Source: Planoprotostelium fungivorum (taxonomy: Eukaryota > Evosea > Variosea > Cavosteliida > Cavosteliaceae). Taken from it: a DNA stretch of 64,000 bases. Of the stretch, positions 1-63,100 are shown piece after piece. The position numbers and the translations under genes were made by a program. Where the stretch lies: assembly GCA_003024175.1 (NCBI GenBank), contig MDYQ01000022.1, forward strand, positions 186,001-250,000, in the 5' to 3' direction. Positions within the stretch are counted from its first letter, which is position 1; every line of letters starts with the position of its first letter. The notes below the pieces were generated by a model. It saw nothing but the letters and a program-made list of their open reading frames with translations. It was not told where the DNA came from and ran no database searches.

Positions 1-3000
1 CACCGACTCACCGTGACACACTTGTCCGTTCTTTCTCTCTACTCTGATGCTCTCTTCTTCTAGCGTGCAGTAGCTTCTCATGTCTGTACTGTCTAACTCG
101 AACTCTTGCTCTAGCCCTCTTCTCTTTCTTCTCACGACAAACAAGATGGCCATAATGAGAACGAGCAGAAGGAGAGAGCCGACTACAACGGGGACTATGA
201 TGACGGCGGGATTGATAGAAGAAGACTGTGATGACGTCATCACACATCATCCATTAGAGATGACACTCACAGGTTGACTCGGCTTCTGAATAGGTACACC
301 ATAAGTGAAGTTTGTAAAGTGATTGCAGGAGCACATGACTGATACATTCGAGACGCTGAGCGTAGTACATCCATCAGGCATCCAAGATTCATCACGTTGA
401 CTCCAGTGAAGACATGTCATGCCTGTCAGACGTCAGTGTACATCTGACATTGTACACAACGCACCAGAAGATGGAGGAGAAGAGAGAGGCATGGTGAATG
501 TGACAGGATCATTCAGTCCACTGACGTTGACGACTTGAAGAGAAGTGTCCAGGAGTTCTACACCCAATATCTGTCCCACGCTGTGTTGAATTGTTAGATT
601 TGATATTCTAAAAGATGGAATATGGAGTTCAATTGGAAGAGATGGATTGTTCATGAATGATAGAGAAACAGATATCTCACATGGACTGATTGACAAAGGC
701 AAATGGATTGAACGTCAGCAGATCCACTACCATAAACCCTTCCGGTGATTTCGATAGAACCTGCACATGTCATCATTTACATCGAATCATCGTGGGATAT
801 CACCTCACGAGAGAAGACGACTGTGGCAGTGTCGCCCACTCTGACAGCTGTCGACAGCTCAGGCACTCTGGCGATCTGTGCTCGTCTCATTCCTCTCTCT
901 CTGTCTCTCTCCTCTCACCTTCTCTATGCTCAGCTTGATGTAGTCTGATGAGATGGCGATGGGCTGAGTGTAGTTGTACAGCTGATTGCGAACCAGAGCA
1001 TCCAGGAGAGTGAAGAAAGGCGTCAGTTGCGAAGCGTTACCACTGTACAGTGGTCGTATGGTATCGTAAGTGAACAGTGACTGTCACATCATCAGTCTAC
1101 ACCATTGTGGATGACCGATCGATTTCACCTCGACGACGCCACGAGAGAGTGACAGCGGAAAATCGATCAGTGGAATGACATCTTCCAGAGGTACACAGAC
1201 GTAAGTTCGTTGTAGATTGAAGTCGTTCAATCGAAGACCTGCACGTAAGAGCGTGGAGCAGTAGCTCCATCTCGTGACATTCGTCACGGCCAAGTCCACG
1301 ATAATTGCGTAATCAACATGGACACAACTGCTCTCTGGTGCCGCCTGATGACAGTTAATTGAAATATTTCCAAATGAAAATTCACCGAAATGTAGTTGAC
1401 AATTTCCGCAAAGTTGTTGAGAGGATAAGATGTTCCGTTGGGACAGGCTGAACAAAACTGTCCTGGACATCTCGTTCCTCCTCTCCTCGCTGTGAACGCT
1501 CTGCTGACGCTGCTGCTGCCACTCCTCTTGATAGATACTGACTGTCCCACGCTTCTGTACAGTGTACCATTGATCCACTGTCCTTCTGGTCCGTTGGCTA
1601 TAGAGATGTGTGCGACACTTCCGTTGTTGTAGATGATCTCAGAGGTGAAGCTAGAGTTGTCCACCCTAATACCGGATATTCTCTCATCGAGTCCGCGACC
1701 GTTGATAGTGAAGTAGCCTCCGTCTGTATATGCACTCGTACCATCTACAACGAAGAAGTGAGAGTCACACATAGACTCAGCCCAGGGCAGATATCTGGAC
1801 AGAGGATAGTCTGTGTCCATCAGACAGTACAGACTACCCGCGTACTCGTCGTTGACGAAGTCTATTCGAATAATCAGATCGAAGACTTGCATCAAAAATG
1901 TTGTGAGAGAGTACTCACCAGAGATCTGATTGCCCCTGACGTCCAGCTGACTGACGCCAGAGAAATACGGAAACGTCGTGATCTCGTTGTAGGACAGATC
2001 CACGACAGAGATGCCGCTGATGTTGCCGACTAGTGAGATGTCGTTGTGTGACAGGTTCAGACTCAACAGTGAAGCAGATAGTGCCGTGGTAAACGGCCAG
2101 ACTGACAGCTGGCTGTAAGATATCTCCAGTTCCATCACATTCTCCATCGTAGAATAATCGACCGTGGCATTGATTGTGCTATTTTTAGATCGGAAGCTGG
2201 TCGTCAAGGTGAAATCGAATCCGTCTGAACTCAGTGTAGAGTCTGAGATGTAGAACTGATTGATGGGACACGTGTAGGCGCCTGTCACTTGACTCTCGTT
2301 GTAGATCGATAGATTCCACATGCAACGTACCAGAGATATGGGTGTGAATAACAAAAGTATTGGAGACTTGTAACTCGTCTCGAATGAGACGGTCGTGTTG
2401 TAGATGGACACGGTGGCGTTGTAGTCGGTCGTCATAGCTAACATGATATCGCTGGAAATTGCTCGTACCTGTCATCCGTTCACCGAACGGTTTACTAGGT
2501 TCTGAACTCACCTCTGAGAAAGAATTCGCCGTGCAATTGATCATGGTCGAATTGTAGATGAACAGCCGGCTCAAATTATTACCACCAGTTCCTTTCAGGC
2601 AGAGAGAGTCGTAATCACCCGAAGTCACGATAAAGAGTGTGTCGTTGACGTGAACCTCCGCGGTAGTGACCGATACAAACGTGGCCGTGGTACCACCACT
2701 ACCACCGATGGTGACGGGTGAGACCATCACTTGTCTCTTGTCTTGATTATTCGATTCCGGATTGGGCCGGGAGACATCGCTGGAGAATGTACAAGATCGA
2801 ATCTGCTCGATGTGAATCCATCGAAGTGTCATCGTATCACCTGGATCGTCTGACTGGGTAGGGTAGATAGATTCATCCTACTGGAGTTGTAGACGGAGTC
2901 GTACACGTAGATGGTCGCTATGGACGTAGATTTGAAATCTCCGGTGAAATTGCAGCGGAAAAAAATGGCGTCACCCACTAGCTTGATCGATCGGGACATT

Positions 3001-5145
3001 TGAATTCCGAATTGTACGTCGGAGGCGTAGAAGGGGTAGGGTGAGATGTCTTGCGGTACCGGGTCAGAGTAGATGAGCGGTCCCGGGTGGGAGTCCTGGG
3101 CCGTATCGATGGATGTGTCGATGATGGTGAGGTTTCCGTGGATACTGAACGAGTTGTACTGCCCAAGTGATATCGTGCCTCCTTGTATGATTGTACCAGG
3201 AACGTCAAAGTGGAAGGACAGAGAGAGTGGAATGGATGGTTCACTGAAGCTGATGGAATAGACGCCATACAAGAAGTACAGATGTAAACTCGTCACATCA
3301 TTGCTGAGTTCGAATACTGATCGAGTGGGTGAGATGAGCGTTGTAGATGGATTCTCACTCGATTGCGTCACATTGAAGCTCGAGTTCAAGTAGATCGAAG
3401 TGACATTTGGCTCGTTGTAGATGATGGGAAAGATGGTAGAGAGAACTCCATTTCCGATGCGACCGAAGACTCTGCCTGTACCGGATGGTACGTACGCGTA
3501 CGCATGGGTGTCGTTGATGACAGTGTAGTTCTGCAGAACAGATAGACCCACAGTGCCTACCAGATTGGCTCCAATGATGCTGACCGAGCCTCCGGCTATG
3601 TCCCTTCAGATATTTGTGCGAAGTTTCGAATTCACCAGTGGCTGGCTGTACGTAATCTACGTACATCACTTGTACGCCACAAGAGTATTGGATCCATCTC
3701 GGTGTGTCGTCTGCCAAAACGGTGGGAGAGTTATCTGTTATACTGCAATTCGACTGAAATGCAAGAGGCGGAGTGTTGTAGAAGCCTGATGTCATGACGT
3801 CAGGATGCGAGTCGAGATGTCATGCATGATACTCACTTGTGAAGTGACATCCTGAGACATAGAGATTCTGCAGATCAGGCAGAAACGGGAACTTTCCTCC
3901 AAATTTTGTGTCTATCAGTTCCAACGTCCTCAAGCTCGTCCACGCCGGAAAACTACCCCCTATCTCTCCATTCTTCACGCTCAGTGTCTTCAGGCTATAA
4001 GGCGGCAAGAAGCTTGCAGGAATGATGTCCACATACACTCTGACCATCGTCACAGTACTGATTGTTGAGCTGAGAGAGCTGGGCCACTGTGCGATGTTCT
4101 GCCAGTAGAGCTGAGTCTGCACGAGAGATATCATGGTCCACAAGTTGGTTGAGTTGTCCGGCGTGAAGTCTAGGGATAAACTCGACAGAGTGAAAAGTTT
4201 TGCAAAACTGACTTGGCTCTCCTCCAGGGTGAGTCGATAGAGGTCGCTGTGGGCGATGCGATCGACGGAGATGGTGCTATGGTTTCTGAAAGTGATCGAA
4301 TAGCGAGGAGAGGACGAGTCATCCATCCAGTGACCGATCTGATATGGCGTCATTCCGAATGATCATGATGGCAATGGAAGACTCACGGTACTGTTGTCTA
4401 TGAGGACGGTGACGGGCAGATTGGTTTGGAAATTCGAGTGGAGACCTCTCATCATGGTGACGTTTCGAACGAGAAGATCGGCAGGCATCACCCAATCGAC
4501 ATCGCGATCTGAATCGCCTTCGAAGGTGGAATCGATTATCACCACGGACTTCGAGACGGAAACTGTGATGGAGAGAGCATGAAAGTTGCAATCGTCCAGT
4601 GTTAGAGCAGAGGAGTTGAAAGATGCGTGACCTCGGGTGAACTGGCTGTGCGATACCGATAGCGTGTTGTTTTCCGTTTGAAGAGTTGCGTCTGTAAAAT
4701 CACATGAGATGATGGTCGATGTAGCCGTATCATCAGTCCAAGTAGAATTGTTGAAGAGGCATTGTGAGACGGACGATAAGTCGGAGGTCGTCTGGATTGT
4801 TGTGTTGTAAAAACTGATGCCTTTCAAGAGGATGGATTGATTGGTGGATATTGTGAGACTGACGTTGTTGAATATAACGTGACCCGCTGCAACGAAAGAG
4901 ATGTTGGAGATGTAGGTGTTGAAGATGGTGGCGGAATCGTCATTGTACTCTCCCGGAAGCAATACGTATGAGTAGTTGCTGACTCCAGATATCCCTATAG
5001 ACGAATGTTGCTCGATGATGGCTGCCGATGTGAGTTTCCGATTATGATCTCTTCACATACACGTCCAATTGTTTGGGCCCAAACTGAAATCTTCCGCAAG
5101 ACAAACTCCCAACAGCACAAACGAGAGGAAGCCAATCGACTTCAT
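1..5145 (-). CDS. Receptor with beta-helix, LRR, IPT/TIG and GPS motif plus TM helix; 3' end off window
   Basis: Large multi-exon cell-surface receptor. It starts at ATG 5145 with a signal peptide (MKSIGFLSFVLLGVCLAEDF). Next comes a beta-helix-like, Asn/Ser/Thr-rich region with many N-glycosylation sequons (about 5000-4360). A leucine-rich stretch follows (4350-3820), then an IPT/TIG-like fold (about 3600-3400), more beta-helix (3400-2500), a second LRR block (2160-1900), a second TIG-like domain (1760-1550) and a Cys-rich EGF-like piece (CPGQFCSACPNGTSY). A GPS motif lies at about 400-254 (CLHW...DGC...CSCNHFTNF). The next intron (about 290-199) is followed by a clear TM helix (VIIVPVVVGSLLLLVLIMAI) and a basic stop-transfer RRKRR. 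The reading frame runs off the left edge, so the cytoplasmic part is unseen. By analogy with the receptor at 13639-17857 it may be a kinase; this is inference. GPS motifs in GAIN domains mediate autoproteolysis next to the membrane. Exon borders in the ectodomain are approximate. Confidence 0.75.
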
Positions 5146-5170
5146 GCGATTGTGGATTGCGGAAAGATAT

Positions 5171-5305: not shown

Positions 5306-5399
5306 TACGGAATGCATGCGGCATAGCGAAAAAGTATGTTGTGGCTTGAGAGCCTGCAGATTTTGTCTCTTCTGACAATATGTGAATGTACCATCTTCA

Positions 5400-6498: not shown

Positions 6499-7868
6499 TC
6501 AAAGGTATTTAGCGATTGCCACGGCCAGCTGAGCTCCCAACTGCGAGCTCCTCCATCCCCAGGGGTGAACACCGTCACCCGAGCAGAAGGAAGGTGATAC
6601 ATGGTCTAAACCCTTCGCCGCCGTCGCACCGAGTTGGATGAGGTGAGCATGACGATCATTCGACTTCTTTCTGTACTGCTGGAATCCCTTCACGATGAAT
6701 TCTTCCGAATATCTTCCGAATGGGACGACCTGTGACGTCAGACGACGTCATCACGAGGGAGATTCACCTGGAATATCTTGGATTTGGGACAAGTCTGCCT
6801 CATGGAGATCAACCATCCCAGCACTTTCTCCGTCACCTGCGTCCCAATCAATCTCAATTAAAATACAATTCATTCGGTTTTAATCACCTGGGGCTTGCTG
6901 GCGAAGAGACCGTCGTTTGTGCCCTGAACATTTAAAATCACATTGGGACACTCGTCGAATTCTCTCTTGACTTTGGAATTGTGCCAGTTCCAAGAAGAAG
7001 TGTTCGATGTACCTTCTTCACTCCACAGGGGAGGTACGTTACCACTGCCTCCTCCCGTCATTCCTGGGAATCGAGGTCAATCCCGGGAATCGTCGACGCT
7101 AGGCTCACCTTGACCACCCCAGGCAAGGAGACTGACTTCTGCGCCGATCGCAGATGCGACGGCGAAACCGAAAGAAGGGAAGGCATCGTCGGTCTCGATG
7201 GTGAAATCATGAGGTGTTGGGAGCTCAACGGTGTTGGCGCCCTGTGCGATACTGTCTCCGTAAACGGCCATCGTCTTAGACGACATGTCGCTGGGCTGAT
7301 TGAAGATGGTGCCGGTGGGTGCATCGAAACCTGAATGAGATGAGATGTGTGAGAGAGGTCGAGAAAGCGTACCTAAGATGCGGATGTTGGTGCTGGGTCC
7401 CACCCAACGATCGACCTAGAGGAGTCAGGACAGTGATCGTATATTACGAAGATGTACCCAGCCGTTGCTGTTCTTGATGTATAAGAATACGGTATGGATA
7501 TCTTGTGGCTTGAGAGAATCTACGAGGAGGACATTTGTGTCGTTACCCATATGGTATTCTTTCCACACGCCGTTGTCGATAGACCATGCGATGTTGGCGA
7601 AATAATCGTTTCTTTGAGGAAGGTCTAACACGACAGACACCTGCAGTCGCCTTCAGAGGATGGCCCATCTTTCGCACATCACCTGGGTGGTGTTGGTGAT
7701 GGTGAATTTGACATAAGGGCCACAGTTAGCTGCCTCGATGGATCCAATGGAGGCATTAATGTACCAGTTCCATTTGGTGTGATAGATGCGAGAGTCGGCA
7801 GCTGCGGTGAAGTCGGCAGTGACCAATTGGGACAGACAGACGACAAATAAAAGAAGGCTGGCTCTCAT
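6499..7868 (-). CDS. Secreted SGNH/GDSL-family esterase with N-terminal beta-domain
   Basis: ATG 7868 opens a signal peptide (MRASLLLFVVCLSQLVTA), then a roughly 150-residue beta-sandwich-like N-terminal region. The SGNH hydrolase blocks follow in order: GDSIAQG (block I, nucleophile Ser), a Gly block around LLAWGGQG, GTNDG (block III, oxyanion Asn), and DGVHP near the C-terminus (catalytic Asp and His, block V). An N-terminal beta-domain plus SGNH core resembles carbohydrate esterase CE2-type deacetylases, so removal of acetyl groups from polysaccharide is the likely role, outside the cell or in a digestive vacuole. At least five short introns interrupt it; one near 6733 contains TGACGTCA. 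Stop at 6499-6501. The family call is firm, the substrate is inference. Confidence 0.75.
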
Positions 7869-8098: not shown

Positions 8099-10490
8099 TT
8101 ATATCGTCACGTAGAATACGGCCACAGATATCATCATGAAGATGACAAAGGTGATGACGTACTTCCACGAATGATCCTCCGGTATCTGCGCGTCTAAACT
8201 GCAACAGAAGAGAGCTGCCTCCGTCTCTTCAATCTCTGAATGGACTACATCTTCAAACATCTTGGCCGTGAACGATAGAGAGCTTGTCTTCTGTAAAGCT
8301 TCACTCAACCTGCAAACGATCAGCTCTCCATCATCCATCATCGTCACGTGCTGATGTCGAACGTGTGACATCTATATGTCTCTCACTTGTATTGAGATAG
8401 AGACTCAGATATGGCAGAGAATGTCTTCTCTATACTCGCAAACTGTCGATTCAGATGTGAAACTGTGGCGGCCGCCACAGGTGACGCACTGTCGCTCTCC
8501 TTCACTGCCTCCAGCATCTGGTCCACCCATTTCCAAGAATAATTCTTGTCCTTCATCTTCTTCATGATGGGGTGATGGATGTACTTTGTCGAAAATTCGA
8601 CGATCTTTTCTAACGACCTTCTCAGTGGAACGGCTGACGTGACGACACGTGACAAGATAGCATTTCGAGTCGAAATATCGCGGAAAATTTCTCCCATGCT
8701 GACGTCACTGGGGTGGGCGTGGAAGGGGTGGTAGCTGTTACATTCGAATGAGAACGAGAAATTTCGCGGAAAAGTGTCACCCCTGCGACCAAGTGTAGTC
8801 GTAACGGCCGTTCGTGTTCGTCTTTGTGGGGTCGACGAGACCTCCCAACCATGATGTGAGAGATCGGATGATGAGTTGGGTCGTCATGTTGCCGTGGATC
8901 GACGCGGGAAGGTCTCTCACTCGATCGAGAGGGTCCGTGCAGTATTGACCCACGGACACATCGGCCGTCTCATCATCGCGGAGGAGGATGATCGAGTCGT
9001 CCGATCTGTCACCATCATCACATCATCCAGAAATTCTCAACTCACATCGACATCGCCTTATAGTTGTCTAAATATTTGTGTCCTCCCCTCGTCGATAGAA
9101 CGTAAACGGGCACGACCCTGACTCCCTGCTTGTTGGCCACCTTGTCCATATCCTCCACGGACATCTTTCCCTTGGCCTTGTGTGAGCTCGAACTCAGCTG
9201 ACTATTGAAGAGGATCGTCTCCTTATCGTGCTCCACGAGACCGGATCCCAAGATATCCTCTACACTTCTCAATTGATGGTGTAGACATTGTGAATCGAGA
9301 TATTCGGTCAGTTGAGATTCCAACCGATTCTCCTCTGTCGTGTAGAACGTTCGAAATTTCGTGCACTTGCTGATGGACAGCGAGATGTGATGGTGCTCGT
9401 GTACGTTGTGTACGCCTCGGAGGAGGTGGAGTTCGATTCCGGGCGGGGTCGCTGCCTTGGCCCAGCGGTGGATCTCTGTGATACGGATATCGGGAGAATT
9501 ATGACCGAAGGGATGAGCTCCTTGATGATTGCGCAATACGATGACGGGAGCCAAGATGCGGCTGACTTCGTGTGTGGTTTGGATGGAAAAATCGGGCACG
9601 AGGACCTGGTTCGTGAGTCAAGAGGAGGAGATGGATGAGAGAGAAAAAGATTGTTTTTTTTATGCCCATGTGTGATGATGATGGGATGGAATCACCTGTT
9701 CGATGGCGGAAGTGACAAGACGAACGATGAAGGAGAGAGGTCTCTGGTTGAGGTTTGCATCGGTGGAGAGGGGATCTGTGAATGATGCAATGTGTCCATT
9801 GTTGCCCGCGGCACAACGAATGGCATGTTTGGACACGTCGGAGACGAGGTATCTACCTCTTCCGACCCAATGGTTGGCGGCGCACCTGTGGAGGATGAGA
9901 ATGACGTCAGCAGGTGATACACACCTCTCCGGGTCAGATGAGGAGGTATAAAGGTAGCGAGTGTTCGCGTTGACGTGGATTCCGTTGAAAGATAGAAAGG
10001 CCGGGGAGGGGATGTTGATGATGAAGTGATTGTATGTAATGGCGGCGGAAGTATCTTCTCGCTCTAGATTTTGTATGTAATCCTCAAAGACTTGCTGGAC
10101 CGAAGAGATGGGAATCACGTGAGGTGATTTGGTCCCCGTGGAAATGAGCCTCTTCAGAGCAGACAGAAATGGAGCCGAGCTGACTGTCTTCACTTGATAT
10201 GTGATATCGATCCTCGTCTGAGTCGGTGGTGCAATCGATTCGCCGTCTTCCATTATCATCTGAGGGATTCTGTCTGGTAGAGTACGTTCTAACAGATCGG
10301 AGATCTTACTGACATCTTCATCTCCTCCATCGTCGATGAGGATGACACGGACACCAATGCGACCTTGAATAGAAAGATCATCGAATGGTGTCGATTTGAA
10401 CTCAGGATTGTTGATCTCGAGCGCTGCATATGTATATCCTAATATCAGACCGATGAGAATGGTTCGTAGTACTGCTCGTCCATGATGCAT
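8099..10490 (-). CDS. Large type I membrane protein of the secretory pathway, unknown function
   Basis: ATG 10490 begins MHHGRAVLRTILIGLILGYTYAA, an uncleaved or cleaved N-terminal hydrophobic segment. About 650 residues of lumenal sequence follow, including a His-rich segment (HNVHEHHHISLSISKC) and a helical C-terminal part. A single C-terminal TM helix ends the protein (YVITFVIFMMISVAVFYV) with almost no cytosolic tail. Stop TAA is at 8099-8101. The layout and several motifs remind me of the plant At5g58100/At3g28720 family of ER membrane proteins; that link is from memory and weak. Several 40-60 nt introns are present (near 9640, 9030, 8700, 8380). No enzyme motif was recognised. Confidence 0.65.
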
Positions 10491-10862: not shown

Positions 10863-13380
10863 ATGATGTCTGAGACAAAACCGACCGTCGCGTTGCCGAA
10901 ACAAGTTCTCAATGCACGCGCTGTTCGAACTGCCAGCGGATTCGAACACAAACTCAAGTTAGCGATGTCCATTCCCAAATCGAGAGAGGAAAGAGAGGCT
11001 GAGAAAGAGGATATAGATGTCACCTATCACAATATACCTACGTTCGAAATGTTACAATCGAGCATTTCTCCCAGGCAGGCACCTCGAAAGGTCGTGATGA
11101 TCGACGAAAAGAAAGAGGTTGTGCCGATCAAGAGGCGCAGGTGAGAGATGATGCATGTGATGTTAGCTGATTCGAAATCATCAGAAGTCGCAGTGCCGTC
11201 GTGTTGCATTCTTGGGAGAGATCCGACGCCTTCATCGATCAGACGACAGTGGAACTCATCGAGAAACTGTCGAAGAATAGAGCCCTTGCCTCTACAAATA
11301 GCACGAACGAACTCAAAAGGGTCCTCTTAAAGAGTGAATCTCACAATCGCACATCCATATTCTAAATCGTACGACAGGATCAAGATTTGACACGATCGGT
11401 AATGATCTGAAGACCATCAAGAAGAAGGTGTATATCATACTTTGGGAGCTCTGATGACGCAATGGCTGATCGAGATGACAGATACACGTCACAGAGGATG
11501 AGTCCGGGTTGATCAAAGATGCAGAGATGCAGTACGCCGTATCAAAGTTGATCGATTCGAAATACCTAGAGAGAGGTGAGAAGAAGAAATCTTCATCACG
11601 CATGCATCGTGTGTCTGATGATCGTGGATAGATCCAAAATGGCAAACGTTACTGTTCTTGACGCATCGTTTTTTCATGAAATCAGAAGATTTTTTTGACC
11701 AAGTTTTGCGATTGTATCCATCCAAAAATGATCGCACGATGATCATCACGATCGCAATCTTTCATCATCGCAATCATATGATTTCTTGATTTAGATTCAG
11801 AACAGAAGACGCCAGAAATAGAAAACAAGTTTACCAGGCCATCACCGTGTGGATCAAGGTGAACATCAGAAGAAATTCACCCCAATACTGATCTACAACC
11901 AGACATGTCCCTCCGATTTCGAAGGAAAATTACTGAAAAAGTTACTGAAATCTCTGCGAGAGAGAAAAGAGCCGGTCGACTGGGTAGAAACAGCCACCAA
12001 GGTGATCCATCCATCTACAACGCTCGTGATGACGTCATCACAGTCCGTAGGTGGACTCATCCACCACAAATCGGCCGCCAAATCGTCCATCAGCCGCAGC
12101 ATCGGTCAGGTGAGACACAATAAAACACAATAAAACGAATTTCGTCTCACTCAGCCAACAGATGGGCACTATGGCCAGACAGTTCCTTCACCCTCAAAGC
12201 TTGGCCCTCAATCGTTCAGCATCAACTGAATACGCACCGTTCAGAGAATCTCTCATCATGGATCACTCATCACAGACGCTGGCCGAACAGTTGACCATCA
12301 AAGACCATCGTCTATTGTTGGGCATCGATCTCGATCAAATGTCTCGATATCATCCCGAAAATTTGGTGAGAAAATGGTCGTTGTAGATGGTGACGAGATT
12401 CCAGGAAACGACACCGGCGATCAAGACTTACGTACGCTGGTTCAATCAGGTGGGAAATTTGAGAGAAAATTGGATGAAAACTGAGAATCGATAGATCAGC
12501 GGCTGGGTGACATCAGAAGTCGTCACGTGCGTACAGACCAAGGTGAAATTCCATCGAAATTTCGTGGAATGATGGCATCTAGTTGAGGGTGTCCTTGGTA
12601 TCCCAATTCATCAAAGTGGCAGTGAAATGTTACGAATTACAGAATTTTAATTCTTCGTTTGCCATATACAGTGGCCTGACAAGGGTGAGTCCTCACCACT
12701 TTAAATCCAATCGAAAATCATTTCGTGGCATTTTATTCATCATCTACAACAGAATACCGTAGCTCGTCTGGCAGATACGTGGCAGGTGAGGTGCAGTCGA
12801 CGAGCTGGGTTTAAAAATTCACAGAAAATTCCAAAGAAGTATCTACAACAATTCACAGAACTAGAAGAAATCTTCAGTCTGGATGGTAATTACAAGAATC
12901 TGAGAACGCTGATGCGATTCAAATCGGATGGAAAGATGACGGCGATGGTGCCGTATACGGGTGAGGAACAATCGTTCATCGCGATGAGACGATGACATGT
13001 CTATAGGTCTGATTCTGAGAGATATCTCCCTCATACAACTTCACAATTCGAATCAGGTGGATACAAAAACAAACTTCTTTCACATCATCATCATCCATTA
13101 TCATCGTACATGATAGACAACATCACGTGGCTGATGCGAGTGAAAGGTCGACGAACGTCTCAACTTTGACAAACTGAGAATATTGGCCCCCAGTTTGGAG
13201 ATCGTCCAACGATGTCAAGCCACCAACTACCATTTCGCCGACGTCTTAGACGTCCAGAAGCAGCTGCTGACGCTCACATACATTCGGAGTGAGGAAGAGC
13301 TGAATAAGAGGTCCAAACTGTGTCAGTCGGCAAGGGGCTCAGAGAACACCAACCCTCTGTCCATGTCCTCTCTCGTGTGA
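10863..13380 (+). CDS. RasGEF (Cdc25-type) guanine nucleotide exchange factor
   Basis: Activator of Ras-family GTPases. In-frame ATGs lie at 10863 and 10866 (MMSETKPTVALPK). The first ~350 residues are basic and low in recognisable domains. The catalytic Cdc25 domain starts near 12280 (LTIKDHRLLLGIDLDQM). It continues over several exons with hallmark segments: WFNQISGWV, an FIKVAVKCYELQNFNS helix, AIYSGL, FSLDGNYKNLR, and PYTGLILRDISLIQ, before the C-terminal helices (LEIVQRCQ...). Stop at 13378-13380. Introns are tiny: 12002-12043 is 42 nt, phase 0, and lacks a stop codon, so it can be misread as exon; 12364-12402 and the one ending near 12752 also carry CTACAAC/GTTGTAG motifs. Exons between 11330 and 11830 are uncertain. 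Confidence 0.8.
12002..12043 (+). repeat. Intron carrying both palindrome motifs
   Basis: A 42-nt intron of the RasGEF gene (GTGATC...CACAG). It contains CATCTACAAC and then the perfect palindrome GTGATGACGTCATCAC directly before the 3' splice site. Its length is a multiple of three without a stop. Confidence 0.75.
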
Positions 13381-16600: not shown

Positions 16601-17857
16601 GGCCTTGGTGGCGGTCATATCTGTCGTCATCTATCGAGGCAGGATGAGGAAGAGAGTGAGTCGATCTACAACGATGATGATGACGTCATCTGACGTGAGC
16701 AGTACACAGAATCCTCCAACTTCAAGATGGAAATCGCTTCACAGGTGAACCATCACGATCATCATGACATCTTCATCCTCTCCAACATCACCACGATCAC
16801 GATCAGACATCATCACAATGATGAGACACCATGATGACAAATGACAGCCCGACATCATCATGCAAGAGAAGGTATGTCAGAGCTCCTTCTCCACCGTCTA
16901 TCGCGCTCTACAATCAGGCACCACAACCGTCGCCGTGAAGAAAATGACGCAGAACGCTCGCCGAACGAGATTCCTCCAAGAGGTTACCATCCTCAAGGTA
17001 TCCGATATTCAACGAAAAAGCATGAGATCTGACTCGTTGTAGAGCATGCACCACCCCCACGTCGTGCAGTATCTCGGTCACTATGAAGATGAAGAGGGTC
17101 AAGTGTGCTTGATGACAGAATGGATGGACAGCTCTCTCCTTCACAAATTGAAAGAAGAGGAGGTCATGGAGAGGGAGCTGAAGGATGACATGTGAAGAGA
17201 GAACATAAGTGTGAGGCTGACTTTGTCAGCACGAGCCAATTGGCTAAGGCGATGAGCTATCTACAACAGCAGAACGTCGTTCACGGTGACCTCTGTGCAG
17301 CAAATGTTCTCCTGCGCGGCTCCAACGTGAAGATTGCGGATTTCAGTGAGTTTTCATCGACTTTCATGTTTTCTCATCGTCTCAGGCATGTCCATCTATC
17401 AGAAACAGAAGATGAACAAAGACGATCAAGTCAACGTTCGCTGGCAGGTGAGACGCATCTACAACCTGCCACTCCCGCTCATCCCCCACAGTCTCCGGAG
17501 GTGTTGAAGAAGCGCAAATTCAACTTTGCCTCTGACGTTTGGTCCTACGGTGTCTTATTGTGGGAGATCTACACCGACGGCTCGCTCCCTTACGTCGATA
17601 TGAACGAATTACAAGTGGAAGATCACGTGAATGAAGGAGGCAGGCTCCCTCCCACAGGAGTCGAAGACATGGACGACATCATGGACAGATGGTGATGGAT
17701 CGCGATCGTGATGATGAGACTGATCGAGATCAGTTGGGCGGAGAATCCGAAGGAGAGAATCACGTTCGTTGCCATCTGCACTCGCTTCGCAAAACCGGAA
17801 CGCAGCACGAAGAGAGCGACGGCGAAGGATGATGAGGGCGTCTTCTATGACGAGTGA
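13639..17857 (+). CDS. Beta-helix/GPS receptor with single TM and cytoplasmic tyrosine-kinase-like domain
   Basis: ATG 13639 opens a signal peptide (MNRGTTLYLFVFFACILADE). A long parallel-beta-helix-type ectodomain follows, with repeated N-x-F-x-G/N-N patterns (FTNNSGSGGGNA, SNFTGNSVDS) as in right-handed beta-helix repeats. A GPS motif at about 16326-16440 has the four expected cysteines (CLYY...DGC...CSCNHLTNF), the proposed cut falling in HLT. One TM helix (VVVGAVFFVALVAVISVVIY) and RMRKR follow. The kinase domain (16850-17850) has VAVKKM (VAIK Lys), FLQEV (alphaC Glu), HGDLCAANVLL, DFS in place of DFG, VRWQSPEVL (APE) and DVWSYGVLLWEI. The glycine loop is VCQSSFSTVY, lacking all three canonical glycines, so activity is uncertain. 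No seven-TM region exists, so this is not an adhesion GPCR. Stop TGA at 17855. Confidence 0.8.
16656..16702 (+). repeat. Intron carrying both palindrome motifs
   Basis: A 47-nt intron just after the TM exon of the GPS receptor (GTGAGT...GAGCAG). It contains GATCTACAAC followed by GATGACGTCATC. Confidence 0.75.
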
Positions 17858-36172: not shown

Positions 36173-36182
36173 TAAAAATGAA

Positions 36183-49134: not shown

Positions 49135-50771
49135 ATGATAAACAATTATGACGATAGGATCTATATCGAAGGTTTTCTGAATGACACAGCCAGATCGATC
49201 ATTCACCGAATGACGACCCGGACAACAGAACACACAATCGGCAGAGAATACAACAACACGAGAAGAGAAGCTGCATGGCTTTCATACAAAAGTAAGGAGG
49301 AGAATGCACTAGACCTGACGTGAATCACAGAGCTATCGATCGACTCCCCAAATGGATGCGTCCTGCGACGGAACTACGGCTTCTCATGATTGGTTTAGAT
49401 GCAGCTGGAAAGACGACTATATTATACAAGCTCAAACTGGGAGAGGTGGTGCAATATCAATCCTTCTGCTGATCTCGATAGAACGTCACCACCATTCCCA
49501 CTCTTGGATTCAATGTTGAGACGATTCAATATAAGGACGTCAACTTCACAATTTGGGATGTTGGTGATTAACCTCATACGACAAAGCGTTCTCACTCTTC
49601 GAGGTGGTTGCGATAAGATCAGACCTTTATGGAGACATTATTTTGAGAACACCTCTGCCCTTGTATTTGTCATCGATAGCGCCGATCGAGACAGAATGGA
49701 AGAGATCATAAACGAAGCCATCAGCCTCTCTCAACAGGCAGACCTGAACGATGCAGCGTTCCTCTTTTTCTGCAATAAACAGGTGCGACGGCGTAAGACC
49801 CTCCGTCTCATTTTCATCAGGACATCTCCGACGCCGCCTCCGTTCTGGAACTATCGAACAGGTTTCTGCCCGCCATCAAAGATAGAACATACTTCTTTCA
49901 GGTGCTGCTTCGTCTTAATAACCGTCATGAAAGAGACTGCAGGGATGTGTGGCCACCCAGGGAGAAGGTCTATGCGACGGTTTAGATTGGTTAATTACTG
50001 CTTTGACCGGGTGATTGTGTCTCATCATATCGTCTCGCACGTTTCTAAATTCTTCAAAGTAATAAATCAGCACCCAAAACCAAAGCCACAGAGAAGCGAA
50101 CAGCCAAGGCACCCGTTGATCTAGCCCCAAACAGATCACCCATCATCAACCTCGGTGAGTTCACATCACATCACCGTCACACATCTTATCTCGACAGCAA
50201 TGAATTCAAAGACATCCGTCCATCCTTCCACCTTCATCAAGGCGGACCTATTTGTCCCCAGCTCTCCCTCCGATGAGTTTCCAGACGATGAATTCCTACG
50301 TCAGCTCGAGAGCTGCACATTGGATGCGTGGGACCACAAGACTCACTTACGCATCCCCTACGTCTATCTCAATCTTCTGGGCAGGCGAGAAGGCGTCAAG
50401 GTATGAAGATGCATGACGCTGCGGCCGAATTCAACTTGGACAGAAAGTGAGACACAGCATACAGAACTACATCATGAACAGTGGCAAGACGAATAAGACA
50501 TGGCATGAGACGATGACCTACTTTTGGGTTCAAGTGAGGAGAGAAGAGGAGATATCATGGTAAACGAGCGTTGTAGATGGTGGATTACGCCAGGGGAGGG
50601 GATAAGGGACGGAGATACAACAGCTTCGATGAGTTCTTAGGGGCGAACAAATACCTCGTGGATGGCGGTCTGTTCCTTCATTATTACACGAGAGAGACAA
50701 TGTTATTGAATAAGGATGCGAGAAGCGAGTTCACATTACCTGATGTGATGCCATTACCCAGCGTCGTGTAG
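49135..50771 (+). CDS. Arf-family GTPase fused to a C-terminal uncharacterised domain
   Basis: The GTPase part has all G motifs: GLDAAGKTT (P-loop), [10 protein letters not shown] (switch I), [13 protein letters not shown] (switch II; Gln of GGQ replaced by Cys), CNKQD and the [15 protein letters not shown]-terminal block typical of Arf/Arl. The best start is ATG 49135, giving a ~55-residue N-terminal extension without the usual MG myristoylation start; a later start is possible. An intron of about 48 nt (GTGATT...TTCAAAG) keeps the frame from LITALTG into [18 protein letters not shown], and the next exon boundary is also in phase. This links the GTPase to a ~140-residue module: [69 protein letters not shown]. 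Stop 50769-50771. The module resembles stand-alone bacterial proteins I recall but cannot name. Confidence 0.65.
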
Positions 50772-51962: not shown

Positions 51963-52249
51963 GCTTCTGCTTTTCTCGTTTGGCGAGAATGCTGGGCGTT
52001 CCAGCCGTGTTCTGTGCTCGCTGTGAGTTTTTCATATTCGCAGTGAGAAAAATATGAGAAGTCATCCTAAGGATGTCATCACACGCCAATACTTCGGGAG
52101 CTCTCTGAACTCAAGCATTCAAGGCACAGCCTCTAAAGTGCTCGTCACTGTTCTACTTCTTCACAAACAATCAAAGTTGAAGATGAATCAACGCCTGACC
52201 TTCTCGATCGTTGAAACGATCTACAACGTTGTAGACGTGTAAATTTATC
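51963..52249. other. Intergenic spacer with CTACAACGTTGTAG palindrome
   Basis: About 290 bp between same-strand genes. It contains the perfect palindrome at 52220-52235, 15 bp beyond the phospholipase stop codon, so the motif is not confined to coding-gene introns unless a 3'UTR intron exists here. Confidence 0.6.
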
Positions 52250-54560
52250 TTACAATCTGACCCAATCGAAATCCCATTCTTCAGGTAGACCCACGGTCCA
52301 CTCCTTCTTCAACAGAGGATGTGCCTCGTTGTAGATGGACCATCTGAATGGCTTCAGGCTCTGGTGACTGGGTCCCGATATAGCCTCGACAGAAAATTCC
52401 TGGAATAAGATGACGACTTTTTCGAGAAAATCTCCCTCCCACCTTCATGAGCTGCACGCTGACCACTTTAGAGTCTATACCACCGAAGGCAGACACGTTC
52501 TTCTCTTCTGTCTCTAAATCGTAACGGGATGACACGGCTCGCGATGAGTGACCCATGCTGATGTTGTCGTGGGTGTAGTCGTTGTACTGCATGACGTGCT
52601 TGATGCCACTGATGTTGTGAACCTGAGTGGTTGTCGTCAGTGTGATGAGATGATGATCAGACGATGATGAGGTGATGATGGTGGAGACCAGAGGATGATC
52701 AGACGATGGCGATGATGGTGATCGAATGATGATGATCTCACGTCAATCTGTAGACGCTCAAAGAGCTGGTAGCGAACATCCTCCGTGTACTGTGTGCAGT
52801 TTCCATCTTTCGTGCAATTTCCGTATCCACTGTCAGAAATTGAATCTTCCTGGAATCTTCCACGTCGACACGATGATCACCTGGTGACGTAGGTCTCCTT
52901 CAAATAAGGCACGTTGAACGACGGCCAGTAGCTCTTCTCCTTCAGCACCTCAGTTACGTCTTTTCTGTGACATTTCTCAGAGTTTTCATCCACATTTCTC
53001 ATGTCACTCACGCGAAAGTGGAATGAGGGATCTGTTCGATGATCCAGAGAGTACCAGGCTGTGCCTGACCATCTACAAACCTGATGTCCATCATTTAATC
53101 ACAGCTCGATACGTTTGGATGACAATACACACTTGTTGTAATCTGTCACGGCCCATTGGTTGTTATAAGTGCCCGAATTGTGCATCGAAAATAGGTCGGT
53201 CCATTCTTCTCCGTCTTTCGCCAAACGATTGGCTGTACACGGTCAACGCGAGGAGACCCATTTTCTACCCACAGATCATTGCCCTCTGCCACGTCATGAG
53301 AGTACTGGGGTCAATGAATTTGAAAAGAGTCTCATCCATTATCTCATTGGTGGTCTCCCAGGCAACCAGACCACTGAAATCTCATCGGAATCCACGCGAA
53401 ATCTCCATCTCACCTGTCCATGGCGTAAAAATCTGAGGAGAATCAGAGAACGTTCGCGGAATTTTCCACGCACCGTCTTTGGAACACAAGAAGGCGGGAC
53501 GGGAGGAGAATGTCATTCTGACAGCACTGACATCCTTCAAGTTGAAATCGTATCTCTTCATGATGCGGAACATGGAGTAGTAACGAGTCCAAGTGGTGTG
53601 ACCGACCAGCAGGTCGTCTTCGGTCATCTACAACGCGTCAGTGAGGGTATATGGTGATGAAATGATAGATGGACATTAATTCACCTTGATGAAACCAGAA
53701 CAATCTAACATCTTGGGAATCGTGACATCGTCGTTCGATCTCTTCTGTTGCATCATCTTCTCGCGATGTCTACGATCATCAGATGACATGATGGAGAGGA
53801 GGATGGGATCGATGTGATCACCTCATTGCACGAGATGAATCGTTCTGATAGAGGGGAACGAGAGTTTCCAGATCACCATCACTGATGAGGGCATACAATT
53901 CGATCTGTGTGATGGCGGGAAGATCTTCATCGAATATACGAGCGGCGGTGTAACTGTGAGATCATGAGTTCATCGCGTGCCACTATCCACGTCATCTACC
54001 CTTCATACAGACCATCGAATTGATCCATCAACAGTCGAACTTGTCTGCGAATTTCTGGATGTTTCACCTTTCATGATCAGTTGAATGGAGCTCAGTGACA
54101 CTCACATTATCGGATCGAGAGAAGATCATTTGTGCTTGGAGGTATTTTGTCATCGTTCTGGACAATGGCTTTCCGTCAAACTCGTTGTACCTCCAACTCT
54201 GGAACCACTGACCAATCCTCTTTGAGGTAGTCAGGCCTTCCATTAAACCTACAAAATAGTCAATCTTTCGATGATGGATTCACAAACCTGCGCAATACAT
54301 CTGAACTGCATCGGGGTATTGGGAGTTAGTAGTGATATTCAATTGATCCCATCCAATCTGGTCTAATGTATCGAGGTAAGAGACGTGACAAGGCCCATCG
54401 AACCTCTCTGTCCTTCAATGAGTTCTGATTTGTGTCGGTGCTCATCACCTTCTATGGGTTCGATGATTCCATCTCTATTGAAGACACCTCCTACACGTAC
54501 AGAGGAAGAGAAGCCGACAAAAATGGCCAAGGAAATGAAGATCGTGAGCCGATGCATCAT
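52250..54560 (-). CDS. Phospholipase B-like hydrolase (PLBD family)
   Basis: Lysosomal/secreted Ntn-type amidase-lipase as in Dictyostelium PlbA-G. In-frame ATGs at 54560/54557, signal peptide [18 protein letters not shown]. Family blocks: [26 protein letters not shown], the nucleophile region LDCSGFIK (Cys becomes N-terminal after autocleavage), [48 protein letters not shown], and the C-terminal [13 protein letters not shown]. The end is WDFDWVRL, stop 52250-52252. About a dozen short introns, including one ending CGTTGTAG at about 53632 and a longer GATGATG-rich one near 52625-52740. Likely acts in digestive vacuoles. Confidence 0.82.
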
Positions 54561-54730: not shown

Positions 54731-57700
54731 TTATTCATCCGGTGGTGGAATATCCCACACGTGTGGCTCTTCTTCTGCCTTCACCTTACACTCTTCCAGC
54801 CTCTCCAAAATCGTCTCACAGTCCGGTCGTCTCTGTGGATCTGCACTCCAACACTCTCGGATCAGCTGCGACATCATGGATGGCACTGCCTTAGGCATCG
54901 TGGGTCTCAGTCCTTGTCCTGTTCTACATCAGCCACTCGTTCATCTCCGACATCATCATCTCGATCGTGACGATGTGAAGACGATGTGATGATCATCTCC
55001 ACCTGTCTGTAACACGATCTGCAGGGACTCCATCTTGTACTCTGCAAACGGCGTCTGGTACTTCCCGTTGAAGCATCGATAGACCATCTCCCACAGACAT
55101 ATACCGAGAGAGTACACGTCCGATTTCACCGTGAACTCTAAACCGTTACAGATCTCAGGCGAGATGTGAGTGGCAGTCCCTCTCAGCTTCTTCAGGGTTG
55201 ACATTCCAGTAGTCTGTTGCGGTCGAGCCAGGCCGAGGTCGCAGACTGACAGGGTCATGCTACATCATGACGCATCATCACACCTTTCACCATCCAGTCA
55301 TCACTGACCAGAAAGTTCATCGTCTTCAGATCTCGATGTAAGACTTGTGGTGTCGAACTGTGCAGGCACCTCACACCTTTCGTCTACAACGGTCAGTTCT
55401 CTCCTTTGAAAATGGAAACGCACCATCTGTATGGCAAAGTCCAACATTTTGGCCACGTCGAAGATGAGAGAAGTGCAGAGGAGGTCGTAGAGCGAGCCCC
55501 TGGAGCAATACTCCATCACTAGGCACAATTGAGGTTCTAAACAAGCACCGAACAAATTGACGATGTTGGGATGTCTAAGACTCCTACGTAGGTGTCAGCG
55601 TACAGTTGCACGTGGGGTTTAAGGTTCAAGTGATGCGTGTGTACAGGGTTTAAGGTTCACCTCAACGTCTCGAATTCGTATTTGAAATCTGTGATATCTT
55701 GCGGCCTCTTGTCTACCACTTTGATCGCTACCTCCCTCGACTTGTGTAAACCCTTGTACACCTGAAATCCCCCTCAGTTTTCTCCGAGTTTTCTCCGATT
55801 TTCACCTGTCCCGACGCCCCCGAGCTCAATTGTTTCGTAAATTCCAGCGTCGAATATTCGATCCAGGGGTCTTTCATAATGCCCATCTCTTCAAATCTCA
55901 ATTTGAACGTCCCAAATATATCTCCGTTCATCTGCATGGGCAGGGGGTAAGACAAGGGCTGCAGGGGTGGTGAAGAGCTGTCTGTGTCGAAGTTTGGAGG
56001 GGAGAGAGGTGTCGGCGCGATCGAGCCGCGTCGACTGCGTTGGGGACGCTGCCGCGGAGATTCGGGTGCCGGTCTCGATTGGGCGGCGGGAAGTTTTCCG
56101 ACGATGGGAATGGCCATGGAGCGGATCTGTCAGATGAGTTTTCTGCGGAATTTCGCGGAGATTTACCTCGCCAGGTATGCCCTTGCTCTCTTTCAGTTCT
56201 TGTATGGCCGTGAGGAGCCGCAATCGAGATCCCATCTTTGTGATGCCTAGATCGTGGAGCATCTTCTCGTCTACCATAGGTAGTGTGTCTTTGAATATTC
56301 TCTCCTTCAAGAAGAGAGGCGTCAGCTCACTCATTCCTAATTTCTCCATCCACGATTCCAACTCTGTACGTGTCAATCTGACGTGTCGACGTCGACACTC
56401 ACCCCGAGTGCGGGACAGTAACATGACGACATCGGTGGAGCAGTCGTTGACGATCGCTACGTCTAAAGCTGTCTGCTGTTTGTTGTCGACGGCAGTTGTA
56501 GAGGCGTTGGCCAGCAGTAGATCCATCGTTAGATCCACACGATTGACCATGACGCTGGCGTGAAGGGGAGTCCTCGTGGAGGGTGAATCTACAACGTTGT
56601 AGACGGATGAAACTCACTTTCCCGAGAAGTCCGGGCGGTTGACCTCGCAGTTGTAGTCTAATAATAGCCTCACCAATAGACCTCTGACGTGTTGGTTCAT
56701 GAGAGCCTTGTGCAGTGGTGTCTCTCCCGTCACGCTGTCCTGCTTGTTGATATCCGTTTTTCGCGCCAAAAATCCGTCGAAGATCTATCCACGTCAGAAT
56801 TTTCCCGCCAAATTTCCCCACCTTTCTCAACGAAGAGGGTGAGGGGTAATATTCACACAACAAGTGGAAAGGTGTGACACCAACACCGTCGATCAAGTTC
56901 GTGTCTATGTTGGGTGAAGACAACAGGGCCTGTGACGTCATCAGAGACGTCTCCGTCACGCATCACGACATCTCACCTGTATGATCCTCGTGTTGTTCTG
57001 TGGAATCGCAACGTGCAACGGTGTTCTCCCCGTCTGGTCCCTCGTGTTGACCTGTCAACGTCAATCACACGTCACCTGTCACGTTTCACCTGCACGGCGT
57101 GTTCCAGTAGGATCTCCACCGTCTCGTGGTCGCTCTGTCCCACGGCGTGGTGCAAGATCGTCTTCTCCCCGATCGGTGTGTTCAATTGATCGGCGAATTT
57201 CTTCATTCTGAGGAGCTTCCTCAGGGCTCTGTGGTCGCCGCTGTCGATGCACTGCAACATCATCTCCACGAAATTGTGGGCTCCGTCTTTCTTCTTGATG
57301 CCAAACTTCTGTTGAATGTCTTTCCAAGGTGAAGCGGGCTGCTTGACGGAGGGGCTGCTCTGTGGAGGGTGAGTCATTAGATTGGCGGGTTGTAGATGGT
57401 GGTCACGTGTTTGAGGGGGGTGGGGCTGGTGGGGAGGACGGGAGACGCGGCTAATTTGGGGGGAGAGCTGATGGACTAGAATGAAATCAATATCGAGGAC
57501 CTTCACTACACTTCACCTTTCTCTTGTCTTCCTCTTCCATCTCCACCGCATCGATCTGATGACGTCATCACGATGTCGACGTCGACAATCGATCACCTTG
57601 GGTGGTATCACTTTGATGGATTTCCTGGCTTCAGCTCTGCTTTCCAGTATAGACACTGGACCCGATTTCGTCCTCGATATGTTCAACTCTTCCCTGACCG

Positions 57701-60131: not shown

Positions 60132-63100
60132 CTATTTATTTTGGTTCACTTGCGTTAAACACTCCTCCAGATGCTCCAATACAGACTGACAAGACGGTCT
60201 CTGCGACGTATCCCCGTGCCACATCTTCGTCATCAGCTGCTTCAGTGGCGGTGGAAAATTGGTCGGAAACGTGGGCCGAACATTGTGCTCTGCCGTCTGC
60301 ACCATGATTTGTAGATCGTTCAACTTGAGATCCGCGTAAGGTTGCTGATAGGCACCCCTCGCCACCGCGATGAACAGCTCCCAGAAGACGATGGCCAAGC
60401 TGTAGATGTCGCTCTGTACGGTTTCAGTCTCTCGCACCCATCTACAACGTTGTAGATCCCACCTCCGTCGTGAATTTTGAACCGGACAAGAGCTCGGGAG
60501 CGGTCCAACCGATCGTGCCCACCATGTTGTTCAACGTTCTCAAGTTGTCGCTCGTGTCGAATCTGGCCAACCCAAAATCTGTCAACTTGACGTCGTCTTC
60601 GTCTGTGATCTGCAACGCATGAGCTCGATTCGATCGCGTGACTGACTCACCAGAACGTTGAGAGACTTTAGATCTCTGTGCACGATCGGAGGGTTGAAGT
60701 AGTGCAAGGTGCTGAGTCCCTGCGTGATCTCGATGGCGAATCTACAACGTTGTAGACGAGCGTGACGTCATCCGCCTCACCGTATGGCCCTCGACCAGTC
60801 TGGAATGTCTACCTTGAGGAGGTGGTACAGACTTCCCTTGCCACAGTATTCCATTACCATGCACAATTTGGGCTCCAGACAAGCACCGATAAAGTGCACG
60901 ATCTGTGGAGACCGAACGACGCTGTCACTCAGCGTCAGCACGGTCACCCTACGTGTCTCATCACCTCATCACGGTGAACTCTTTCCTGAACTCTTGTTCC
61001 ATCGCCTCGTCTTCCGTCTTCAATACCTGCCCGAGTCAAATTTTTCTCTCTCTTCTCTCTCACCTTGATGGCGACTTTCGTCCCGTTGTAGAGACCCTTG
61101 TACACTTTTCCTGAGGTTCCGGATCCCAATTTCTTCGTGTATTCCAAGTCCTTGTGCTCGATCAGCCAGTCAGGCCTCGAATTCTCCTCCATTCCCATGA
61201 TCGTTCGGATCCTCTCTTTCCTGTGAAATTTCGATGAGATTTCACCGCGATTGTACGCGACTCTACCTCTCTGAGTCTTGTACGGGTGTGGTGACCTCCT
61301 TGCCCTGCTGCTTCACCTTGTTCAATTTCTCTTTAAAGTCTGCGTCGCTCTTGTGCTGCTTCTCCTCCTTCACCCTCTGCTGCGCCTCGTAAGTACCGTA
61401 CGCCTCCGAAATTTCACTCACTTTTCCCGCCGTCGACGATTCGAGCAGCTTCATCATTGCTTTCTTCAGAGTCAAACGTGAGCCCATAGTTAAACCCAAT
61501 TGTAAGCTGTCGATCGTGTCTTCACACATCTTCTCGCTGTCTATGCTCTCGGTCATAGTGTCTAAATACAACTCTTCTTCCATGAATTTGAGATAATGCT
61601 GCTCCAATTGGATCTCAGCCAACCAAGCCTTCAGATCTGTGACGTGTTATGACGTCATCACACGTCATCACTCACCTTCTGCCCTCTCGATCATCTCGGC
61701 GATCTTGTGCTGCTTCAACTCTTCCGCCAACTGCCTCGGCCTCGTCTTCCTCTTCGATTCGAGCGAAGTGTCCGCACCTGCCTCGAAATGAACACACGAC
61801 CACCATCCTCTATCTCACCCGCATTTAAGAGGATCTTGATGATGTCCTTCCTTCCAAGATGTACGGCGTAATGCAAGGCTGTGTCACCGTGGTTCGTCGG
61901 TATATTCACGTCGGCACCGTTTGCGATGAGATGGTTCAACATCAGGACACGAACGGATGGATTGAATATGGCCTTGTGAAGTGGCGTCTCACCACCGACG
62001 TTCGTCTTGTTGACAGAAGCACCTCGCTTGATGAGGAGGTCCATGAGGTCCTGACACGATGGTGATGATGACTTCTGACAGAAGTAGTGGAGGGGTGTGT
62101 TCTTGTCTTTCGATTCCACGTCGATGAGAATTCCGGGAAAATCGAGAATGCGGCGGAGGATCTGGTCGTCGGAAGGTTTACCGGTGGCGTGGTAGGTCGC
62201 GCAGTGGAGGATGGTCCAGTGTAATCTACAACGTTGTAGACGAGTAGAAATGAATAGAGATGGAGTACCTGTCTTGGACGTTGATGTTGAGGCCTTCCTT
62301 CTGGTAGTGGCCCAAGAACAGATTGATAATGCTCCTGAACATCGTGTGAGATTTCGATTTTTAAGAAAACTCACACTACACCAGATTTGAACGCAGAGTG
62401 AATGGGATAGGAGCCGTCAGTGTCTTGTTCGTTCATCCTCAACGGGATCTGCACGTCTCAATTTTTCCCGCCGAAATTTTGGGACGCACCTTGTCGGCAT
62501 TGGCAAACAGTGAAGTGACTCGATCGACGTCGTCACACTTGAGAGCGTTCGACAGACTCGTGACGTCATTTGCGTAAACGCTCCACAGTTGCTCCATCGT
62601 CTTGTACAGTGAAGATGAAATTCCGGGCAGTGACATGCTGCTCTTGACGCACAGAAACTCGACTGTGTTGCCTCCGGAGGATTTTCCCTTCTTTCCCATC
62701 TGAAAGACCTCTCGGAGTGCTACCACATGCTGTGAGGCGTGAGAAATGAGATTCGAAATAAAAATGAAGTGGAAGCAAAGGGAGAATTTGTAGATATTTG
62801 AGGTGGATCGTGAAGGTGGAAAATGGGAGATGAGAATTTTGATGATGCATGAGGATGTCGCATGAGATGGCTTACTGGCTTCGAGTCTGTGTCTAGATGG
62901 CAGAGGTGGAATGGTGTTAAGAAGTAGCGTCCGGCTTTACTCAATTGGGCTGCGATTTTTTCAACCGAACGTAACCTCTATATGTCCTCACATGCTACAC
63001 ACTCTTCCGACGTAGGTATGTTGGGGAAGAAGGCTCTCATGTCTTGCGTTGGGTTATCTCCCATGAGTGACCTGCTCATCTCAATTTACATTCTAAAAAA

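Follow-up and report, generated by a model that had tools for sequence, protein, structure and literature searches.

Two short DNA words are concentrated in the ultra-short introns of unrelated genes in a 64 kb window of the Planoprotostelium fungivorum genome (contig MDYQ01000022.1, positions 186,001 to 250,000). The window is the whole stretch analysed, and all counts below are confined to it and to introns predicted by a gene model. The words are D, the palindrome TGACGTCA, and Y, the half-site CTACAAC or GTTGTAG, i.e. the same word in either orientation. Both are far more frequent in short introns than in shuffled sequence. From their distribution and symmetry we tentatively suggest, with slightly less than even confidence, that D and Y may be sites in double-stranded DNA that sequence-specific proteins recognise, located inside genes and held mainly in these tiny introns.

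Introns were called with a custom-written gene finder that uses a position-specific coding score, GT-AG sites and learned intron lengths, with the bases of D and Y masked from the coding score. The finder converged on 280 introns, all of them GT-AG, with the consensus donor AG/GTGAG (the slash marks the splice junction) and the acceptor CAG. Of these, 202 are at most 60 nt long, with a median of 42 nt and a total of 8.7 kb, and are referred to as short introns. Some gene models appear to fuse adjacent genes, and much of what is called as longer "introns" is probably intergenic DNA; therefore long introns and intergenic DNA were pooled as "other non-coding" DNA (18.5 kb). Over most of their length, an MST-like kinase domain and the model of RPN1 can be aligned with solved structures.

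The window contains 23 copies of D and 66 of Y, as well as 7 copies of the exact 12-mer GATGACGTCATC and 6 of CTACAACGTTGTAG. By site midpoint, D is found 15 times in short introns, 7 times in exons, once in a long intron and never in intergenic DNA; one of the 15 spans a predicted donor (14502), which leaves 14 whole sites. The corresponding numbers for Y are 34 in short introns, 28 in exons, 3 in long introns and 1 in intergenic DNA. Dinucleotide shuffles of the short introns predict only 0.70 whole D sites and 0.75 whole Y sites, to be compared with the 14 and 34 observed. The other non-coding DNA contains one D (0.8 expected) and four Y (1.6 expected). In all, 37 of the 202 short introns carry a motif, D in 14 and Y in 27, and they belong to 10 of the 13 gene models, coding for proteins of unrelated kinds.

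This agrees largely with the original prediction, made from the letters of the sequence, that two palindromes recur in tiny introns across unrelated genes. It had stated that it would be refuted if, genome-wide, the words were no more frequent in introns than in shuffled introns, or just as frequent in exons and in intergenic DNA; within the window, the short introns are far above the shuffles and above both other classes. All 15 D positions that it listed are recovered within 7 bases and all five Y palindromes within 3. However, the list was selective: of the 23 D copies 8 are missing, 6 of them within predicted exons, and an additional intronic Y palindrome at 52221 is absent from it. The location in introns nearly holds for D but only partly for Y, as 28 of the 66 half-sites fall in predicted exons; the half-sites named in the original list were meant as examples.

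The contrast between short introns and other non-coding DNA is also seen with three other finder settings, which share their initial labels with the first and are thus not independent of it. The density of D is 1.2-1.8/kb in short introns versus 0.07-0.10/kb in other non-coding DNA, and that of Y is 2.4-3.9/kb versus 0.27-0.52/kb. An 11-mer for Y, allowing at most one mismatch, is found 30 times in short introns, 14 times in exons and once elsewhere, and a 14-mer for D, allowing at most two mismatches, 11 times in short introns, twice in exons and never elsewhere. Other non-coding DNA shows an excess of D-like 14-mers that carry exactly three mismatches (10 vs 2.5); these ten are a mixed set, several of ATGATG type and one (3792) with a genuine D core. 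When D and Y are masked, the top intron 7-mer is the Y variant CTACATC, and other intron words, e.g. GAAATTTC and GGCGGGAA, are at or slightly above the shuffle range. No clustering of the motif introns along the window is seen (p = 0.83), nor any difference in the distance from larger non-coding stretches (p = 0.36). The 18-mer ATCTACAACGTTGTAGAT, a form of Y, is present at 15 places in a prokaryote genome collection, compared with about 4 by rough arithmetic; in a viral contig collection, neither two DNA patterns nor the protein of one RPN1 exon found relatives.

The over-representation of both words in exons is new relative to the original prediction. Compared with codon shuffles, exonic Y is found 23 times vs 4.7 in sense orientation and 6 times vs 0.5 in antisense, while D is found 7 times vs 0.9. 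Without the first gene model, which is merged, the numbers are 14 vs 3.2 and 5 vs 0.3 for Y in sense and antisense, and 6 vs 0.6 for D. A single reading frame, xxC-TAC-AAC, contains 16 of the 28 exonic Y copies. The observed and expected numbers of Tyr-Asn codon pairs are 29 and 9.3 for TAC-AAC, 11 and 6.1 for TAC-AAT, 1 and 3.7 for TAT-AAC, and 2 and 2.4 for TAT-AAT, so there is an approximately two-fold excess of Tyr-Asn, with the spelling TAC-AAC favoured on top of it. TAC-AAC makes up much of the exonic Y and shows a nucleotide-level preference beyond the Tyr-Asn excess. In RPN1, three exonic Y copies are found, by eye, where the tyrosine departs from the human residue.

The sites are symmetric without a spacer. 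Perfect zero-spacer dyads with arms of at least 7 are found 14 times, vs 0.9-1.0 expected, and D and Y themselves account for 10 of the 14; among the 65 palindromes with arms of at least 4, 32 are centred on ACGT. Y shows no strand preference in introns, with 16 sense and 18 antisense half-sites, and this favours a reading at the DNA level; the original prediction had argued from the presence of both orientations for a double-stranded DNA site or an RNA hairpin over a one-sided splice signal. A Y 12-mer is in excess up to three mismatches (15 vs 4.8) and then no longer (32 vs 34.3). Its mismatches are mainly at the flanks and not in TCTACAAC, and the information drops outside this core, although some bias remains in this consensus, which was built from sites first picked by CTACAAC. 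D is positioned anywhere from 0.13 to 0.85 of the intron length. Nine introns terminate exactly at GTTGTAG, and in 7 of the 9 the exon continues with AT, vs 30 of the 193 others; the Y site thus crosses the splice junction and ignores the boundary. If the spliceosome takes the first AG downstream of the branch point, the use of GTTGTAG as acceptor would be expected from this rule.

In the orientation CTACAAC...TGACGTCA, five Y/D pairings lie within 60 bp. The spacing is 8 bp in three of them (12015, 16666 and 27832), 14 bp in one, which involves the far half of the 60742 palindrome, and 42 bp in the last, where Y is exonic. The other orientations have spacings of 7, 12 and 13 bp. This Y-N8-D spacing hints, from few cases, at a joint binding of D and Y. 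Five introns had been predicted to contain both motifs; four of them (12002, 16656, 27054 and 60742) do so in our model, but the fifth, at 27813-27848, which includes the pairing at 27832, is read as exon. It is 36 nt long without an in-frame stop and could be intron or coding, and the intron at 12002 is likewise a multiple of three without a stop. The co-occurrence of D and Y within one intron, 4 vs 1.9 expected, is not significant (p = 0.10).

We read D and Y as double-stranded DNA sites because of the excess in short introns, the background level in the remaining non-coding DNA, the strand indifference of Y, the zero-spacer symmetry, and the near-invariant Y core with its variable flanks. 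D, in the form (G)ATGACGTCAT(C), would be a symmetric site of the basic leucine zipper (bZIP) or cyclic AMP response element (CRE) type, with predicted binding of a dimer; the original prediction had recognised the bZIP/CRE core, and D is indeed the palindromic CRE octamer, with its 14 whole intronic copies. Y would be a half-site of about 10 bp (ATCTACAACG), used singly or as the overlapping dyad ATCTACAACGTTGTAGAT. Tiny introns could serve as the main lodging of both since coding imposes no restriction there. Protein binding, binding as the function of the sites, and a role in the gene body are what we infer; this role might be tied to gene bodies, e.g. polymerase pausing or chromatin organisation within genes, rather than to promoters. 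It can further be speculated, as a rather improbable extension, that introns are marked at the DNA level genome-wide, dimeric proteins on the palindromes pausing the polymerase or setting chromatin and thereby coupling transcription to the splicing of introns whose small size leaves no room for other signals.

Several observations weigh against recognition sites of this kind. Ordinary regulatory sites would be expected in promoters as well, but 42 non-coding stretches of at least 150 bp (13.9 kb, in which promoters were not mapped individually) contain a single Y and no D. The spread of motif introns over 10 of the 13 gene models is odd for one regulator. Spaced inverted repeats are modestly in excess too (14 vs 5.2 for arms of at least 7), and a D 14-mer retains a weak excess at four and five mismatches (12 vs 8.0 and 45 vs 35.1). 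TGAC has its A 8-11 nt before the 3' end in 6 of the 14 introns with D, close to where other introns have their branch points, and this subset may play a part in splicing. Finally, the support comes from the sequence of one genome window.

The main rival is an introner-type origin, which we regard as possible but unlikely. The motif introns would then derive from mobile elements, short and palindromic, that entered genes together with their own splice sites, an origin that has been suggested for symmetric introns in fungi of the Hypoxylaceae. Some intron pairs are alike over up to 21 of 21 nt (36927 and 61637) and 24 of 27 nt (12002 and 16656), the best pair score is 21 compared with 12, 15 and 15 in three shuffles, and in one intron 28 of 39 nt belong to a single near-perfect palindrome. 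However, this sharing does not extend beyond the sites and the bases close to them, with best pairs of 16-27 nt among the 202 short introns of the window, and introns with the same 3' Y have, by eye, unrelated 5' parts. Neutral decay should scatter mismatches and leave a long tail. The weak excess of D at four to five mismatches would fit this, but Y shows no excess at four or more, has its mismatches in the flanks, and is also found in exons and over splice junctions, a pattern unlike that of decayed inserts. Spread through RNA would account for the absence from non-genic DNA. The terminal duplications that had been proposed as a sign of introners do not stand out: direct repeats at the junctions are at most 5 nt long for the 37 introns with a motif, compared with 7 nt for the other 165, and their distribution is similar. 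One pair of paralogues within the window, two ankyrin-kinase genes, could be compared, and where they align 6 of 7 motif introns are at positions without an intron in the other copy; this is non-discriminating, because 12 of 15 motif-free short introns are unshared as well. Two intron positions are common to the paralogues, one of them offset by one residue in the alignment, and at one common position both introns are palindromic, with a suggestive similarity between them (p = 0.07). On balance, the sharing at sites and near flanks together with the unremarkable boundary repeats disfavours introner-type gain.

Next comes a role in RNA, where D and Y would act as splicing aids, either as branch-point or 3' splice-site modules or as hairpins that join the splice sites of tiny introns; we judge this improbable. 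The position of TGAC in the six D introns fits it, since in other introns the A of the last TGAY is mostly found 9-14 nt before the end. The acceptor role of GTTGTAG in nine introns fits as well; TGAY is also somewhat commoner in motif introns (25/37 vs 83/165, p = 0.07). However, the acceptor use would follow from the first-AG rule, D is spread widely along the intron, the two strands of Y are used equally, 20 of the 27 Y introns have only one half-site, and donor, acceptor and branch-site scores show no significant difference. For hairpins, which the original prediction had considered on a par with DNA sites, the support is at most weak. Inverted repeats with pooled spacers of 3-14 nt and arms of at least 6 are in excess (34 vs 19.5; 12 vs 4.8 in the 37 motif introns and 22 vs 14.8 in the 165 others), but no individual spacer in this range stands out, although a cruder k-mer count gives an excess at spacers of 3-8 and 15-22. 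The zero-spacer class is much stronger, 19 vs 3.2 for the same arms; palindromes without a spacer are enriched about 15-fold and spaced repeats 1.7-2.7-fold. In the motif introns, six spaced cases with arms of at least 7 are, by eye, built from copies of D or Y. Folding energies are slightly but not significantly lower in motif introns than in the others (mean z -0.41 vs -0.15, p = 0.12). RNA hairpins are thus unlikely. Recombination or DNA-break hotspots, with the short introns holding sites as by-products of break repair in transcribed genes, seem very improbable to us: D does sit within genes and contains ATGACGT, the M26/CRE hotspot of fission yeast, but Y is left unexplained and hotspot motifs tend to disappear through conversion. 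We give hardly any credence to an artefact of gene calling or codon usage, in which the motifs supply the GT and AG of false introns or mirror common codons. A few motif introns (4 of 37, as are 24 of the 165 others) are indeed multiples of three without stops, and the preferred frame of exonic Y fits common codons. However, the coding score was computed with the motif bases masked, for 33 of the 37 motif introns retention would cause a frameshift or introduce a stop, the spliced MST-like kinase domain aligns to STK4 without gaps at the junctions of its four motif introns, and with a Markov model, which works without gene calls, D and Y rank among the words most in excess in the whole window.

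The proposed protein recognition sites in gene bodies can also be compared with known systems. The CRE/C-box and T-box sites to which bZIP factors bind have been described mainly in promoters. D is identical to the CRE octamer and both palindromes are ACGT-centred, but here the other non-coding DNA is at background level, and Y also exists as a half-site of about 10 bp without an ACGT dyad. In the passages considered, the symmetric (sister) introns and stwintrons of Hypoxylaceae show an inverted symmetry with a short palindrome at its centre (10 nt, TTTCTAGAAA); the authors find this symmetry dispensable for splicing, and in an example of 93 nt the terminal inverted repeats are 45-55 nt, with introns alike over most of their length (PMC8469720). 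The internal symmetry around a short palindrome is similar in our introns. However, compared with the features described there, the motif introns are only 38-57 nt long, share mainly the site, have it at variable positions, and Y is also exonic. The introner elements of Amoebophrya, as far as they are covered in the parts considered, have repeats of 8-20 nt that join the intron ends; their boundaries show direct repeats of 3-5 nt, and most of the splice sites are non-canonical (PMC7789003). They resemble our case in having inverted repeats within introns of a protist, but here the main dyads are spacer-free, all called introns are GT-AG and the boundary repeats are unremarkable against what those parts describe. 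Introner copies derived from DNA transposons are alike over their length. In the sections considered of a study of such introners, target-site duplications are reported in 49 of 130 families and terminal inverted repeats in 72 of 177 (PMC9860276). A repeated sequence common to introns of unrelated genes is a shared property, but the features given in these sections are not seen among the 202 short introns here. The D/Y pattern is not described in the passages considered of this fungal, Amoebophrya and general introner work, and no system matching the pair was found in the literature searched.

The individual motif introns are as follows. On the minus strand, D is found in a 45-nt intron at 226-270, which has the 18 bp palindrome TGTGATGACGTCATCACA at its 3' end, near the 3' splice site of 6730-6767, in the possible intron 9886-9924 (a multiple of three without a stop), near the centre of 22945-22985, in 46625-46668, at the 3' end of 56930-56976, and in 57556-57596, where TGATGACGTCATCA is accompanied by a second ACGT-centred palindrome, TGTCGACGTCGACA. 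In 61637-61675 a near-perfect, D-centred palindrome covers 28 of 39 nt, with 13 of 14 arm positions. D is also present in the RPN1 intron 43708-43745 (minus), whose true donor may be 21 nt upstream, judging from a 7-residue insertion compared with human RPN1; D is inside either way. On the plus strand, the palindrome GTGATGACGTCATCAC is found in 36927-36967 of the FAD-oxidoreductase gene and in 12002-12043, where it follows a Y half-site after an 8-bp gap; the latter intron is not proven by frame. The same arrangement of Y, an 8-bp gap and D is seen in 16656-16709 (plus) and in the intron-or-coding stretch 27813-27848 (minus). Y and D are both present in the minus-strand introns 27054-27094, from the MST-like kinase, and 60742-60780, where a full Y palindrome forms the 3' splice site.

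Y half-sites are found on the plus strand in 11859-11902, 12366-12404 (antisense), 17448-17491, in a stretch that is kinase-like by eye, and 25495-25537 of the MIF4G/MA3 gene; 25986-26027 has two inverted half-sites 13 bp apart, the second being the 3' splice site. On the minus strand they are found in 27175-27221 (MST-like kinase), 28113-28155, 46783-46822 and 57360-57406, and in the possible introns 1724-1768, which may be coding, and 3317-3358, both multiples of three without a stop. 30391-30443 (minus) has a Y core in an atypical context (ACTACAACC). Full or near-perfect Y palindromes, all on the minus strand, are present in 27605-27643 (MST-like kinase), 28032-28070 (near-perfect, CATCTACATCGTTGTAGATG), 56573-56617 and 60414-60462 (18 bp, ATCTACAACGTTGTAGAT), and at the end of 52221-52261 and of 62226-62268 in an ankyrin-kinase gene. 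Y is also at the end of 16998-17042 (plus; GTTGTAG/, in a stretch that is kinase-like by eye), 26735-26775 (minus, MST-like kinase; CGTTGTAG/ATGG), 50534-50576 (plus; CGTTGTAG/ATGG, the motif extending into the exon), 53628-53684 (minus; CGTTGTAG/ATGA) and 55384-55423 (minus). The spliced protein aligns over the junction at all four MST-like kinase introns.

Other features were observed alongside. Further ACGT-centred palindromes, built on GTCGAC and up to 22 bp long (CGTGTCGACACGTGTCGACACG), are found at 47023-47061, 56364-56402 and 57556-57596 and are possibly a third family. The word GGCGGGAA is over-represented in the window, with copies at 25363, 27519, 37055, 41128, 42550, 47296, 53914, 56085, 56802, 58110, 61424 and 62465; as predicted exons contain 8 of these 12, with 3 more in short introns and the last in a long intron, an E2F-like reading was dropped. 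Direct repeats of 8 nt inside single short introns, e.g. 12110-12161, 52965-53011 and 61637-61675, are about four times as frequent as in shuffles (56 vs 13.8), and 52965-53011 has a terminal inverted repeat, formed by GTGACAT close to the start of the intron and ATGTCAC close to the end. Pfam searches with seven pieces from 5 of the 13 gene models identify LAG1-type DNA-binding, RasGEF, FAD oxidoreductase, ankyrin-SAM-kinase, MIF4G/MA3 and phospholipase B domains, with one piece matching below the cut-offs only. Scans of the window with Rfam, at gathering level, and for tRNAs gave no matches. Similar stretches are in tandem at about 18600-22500, and one piece has a weak match to a LAG1/CSL-type DNA-binding domain (Pfam: PF09271, E 3e-6), which to our knowledge is unusual outside animals and fungi. 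At about 38400-40820, a cysteine-containing protein is present in three tandem copies, expansin-like by eye; part of one copy gave no match of its own in Pfam.

If the pattern is true genome-wide, about one in five of a eukaryote's ultra-short introns would bear one of two DNA words that are almost confined to genes. Tiny introns would then be testable as sites acting at the DNA level, apart from splicing, in sharp contrast to introners.

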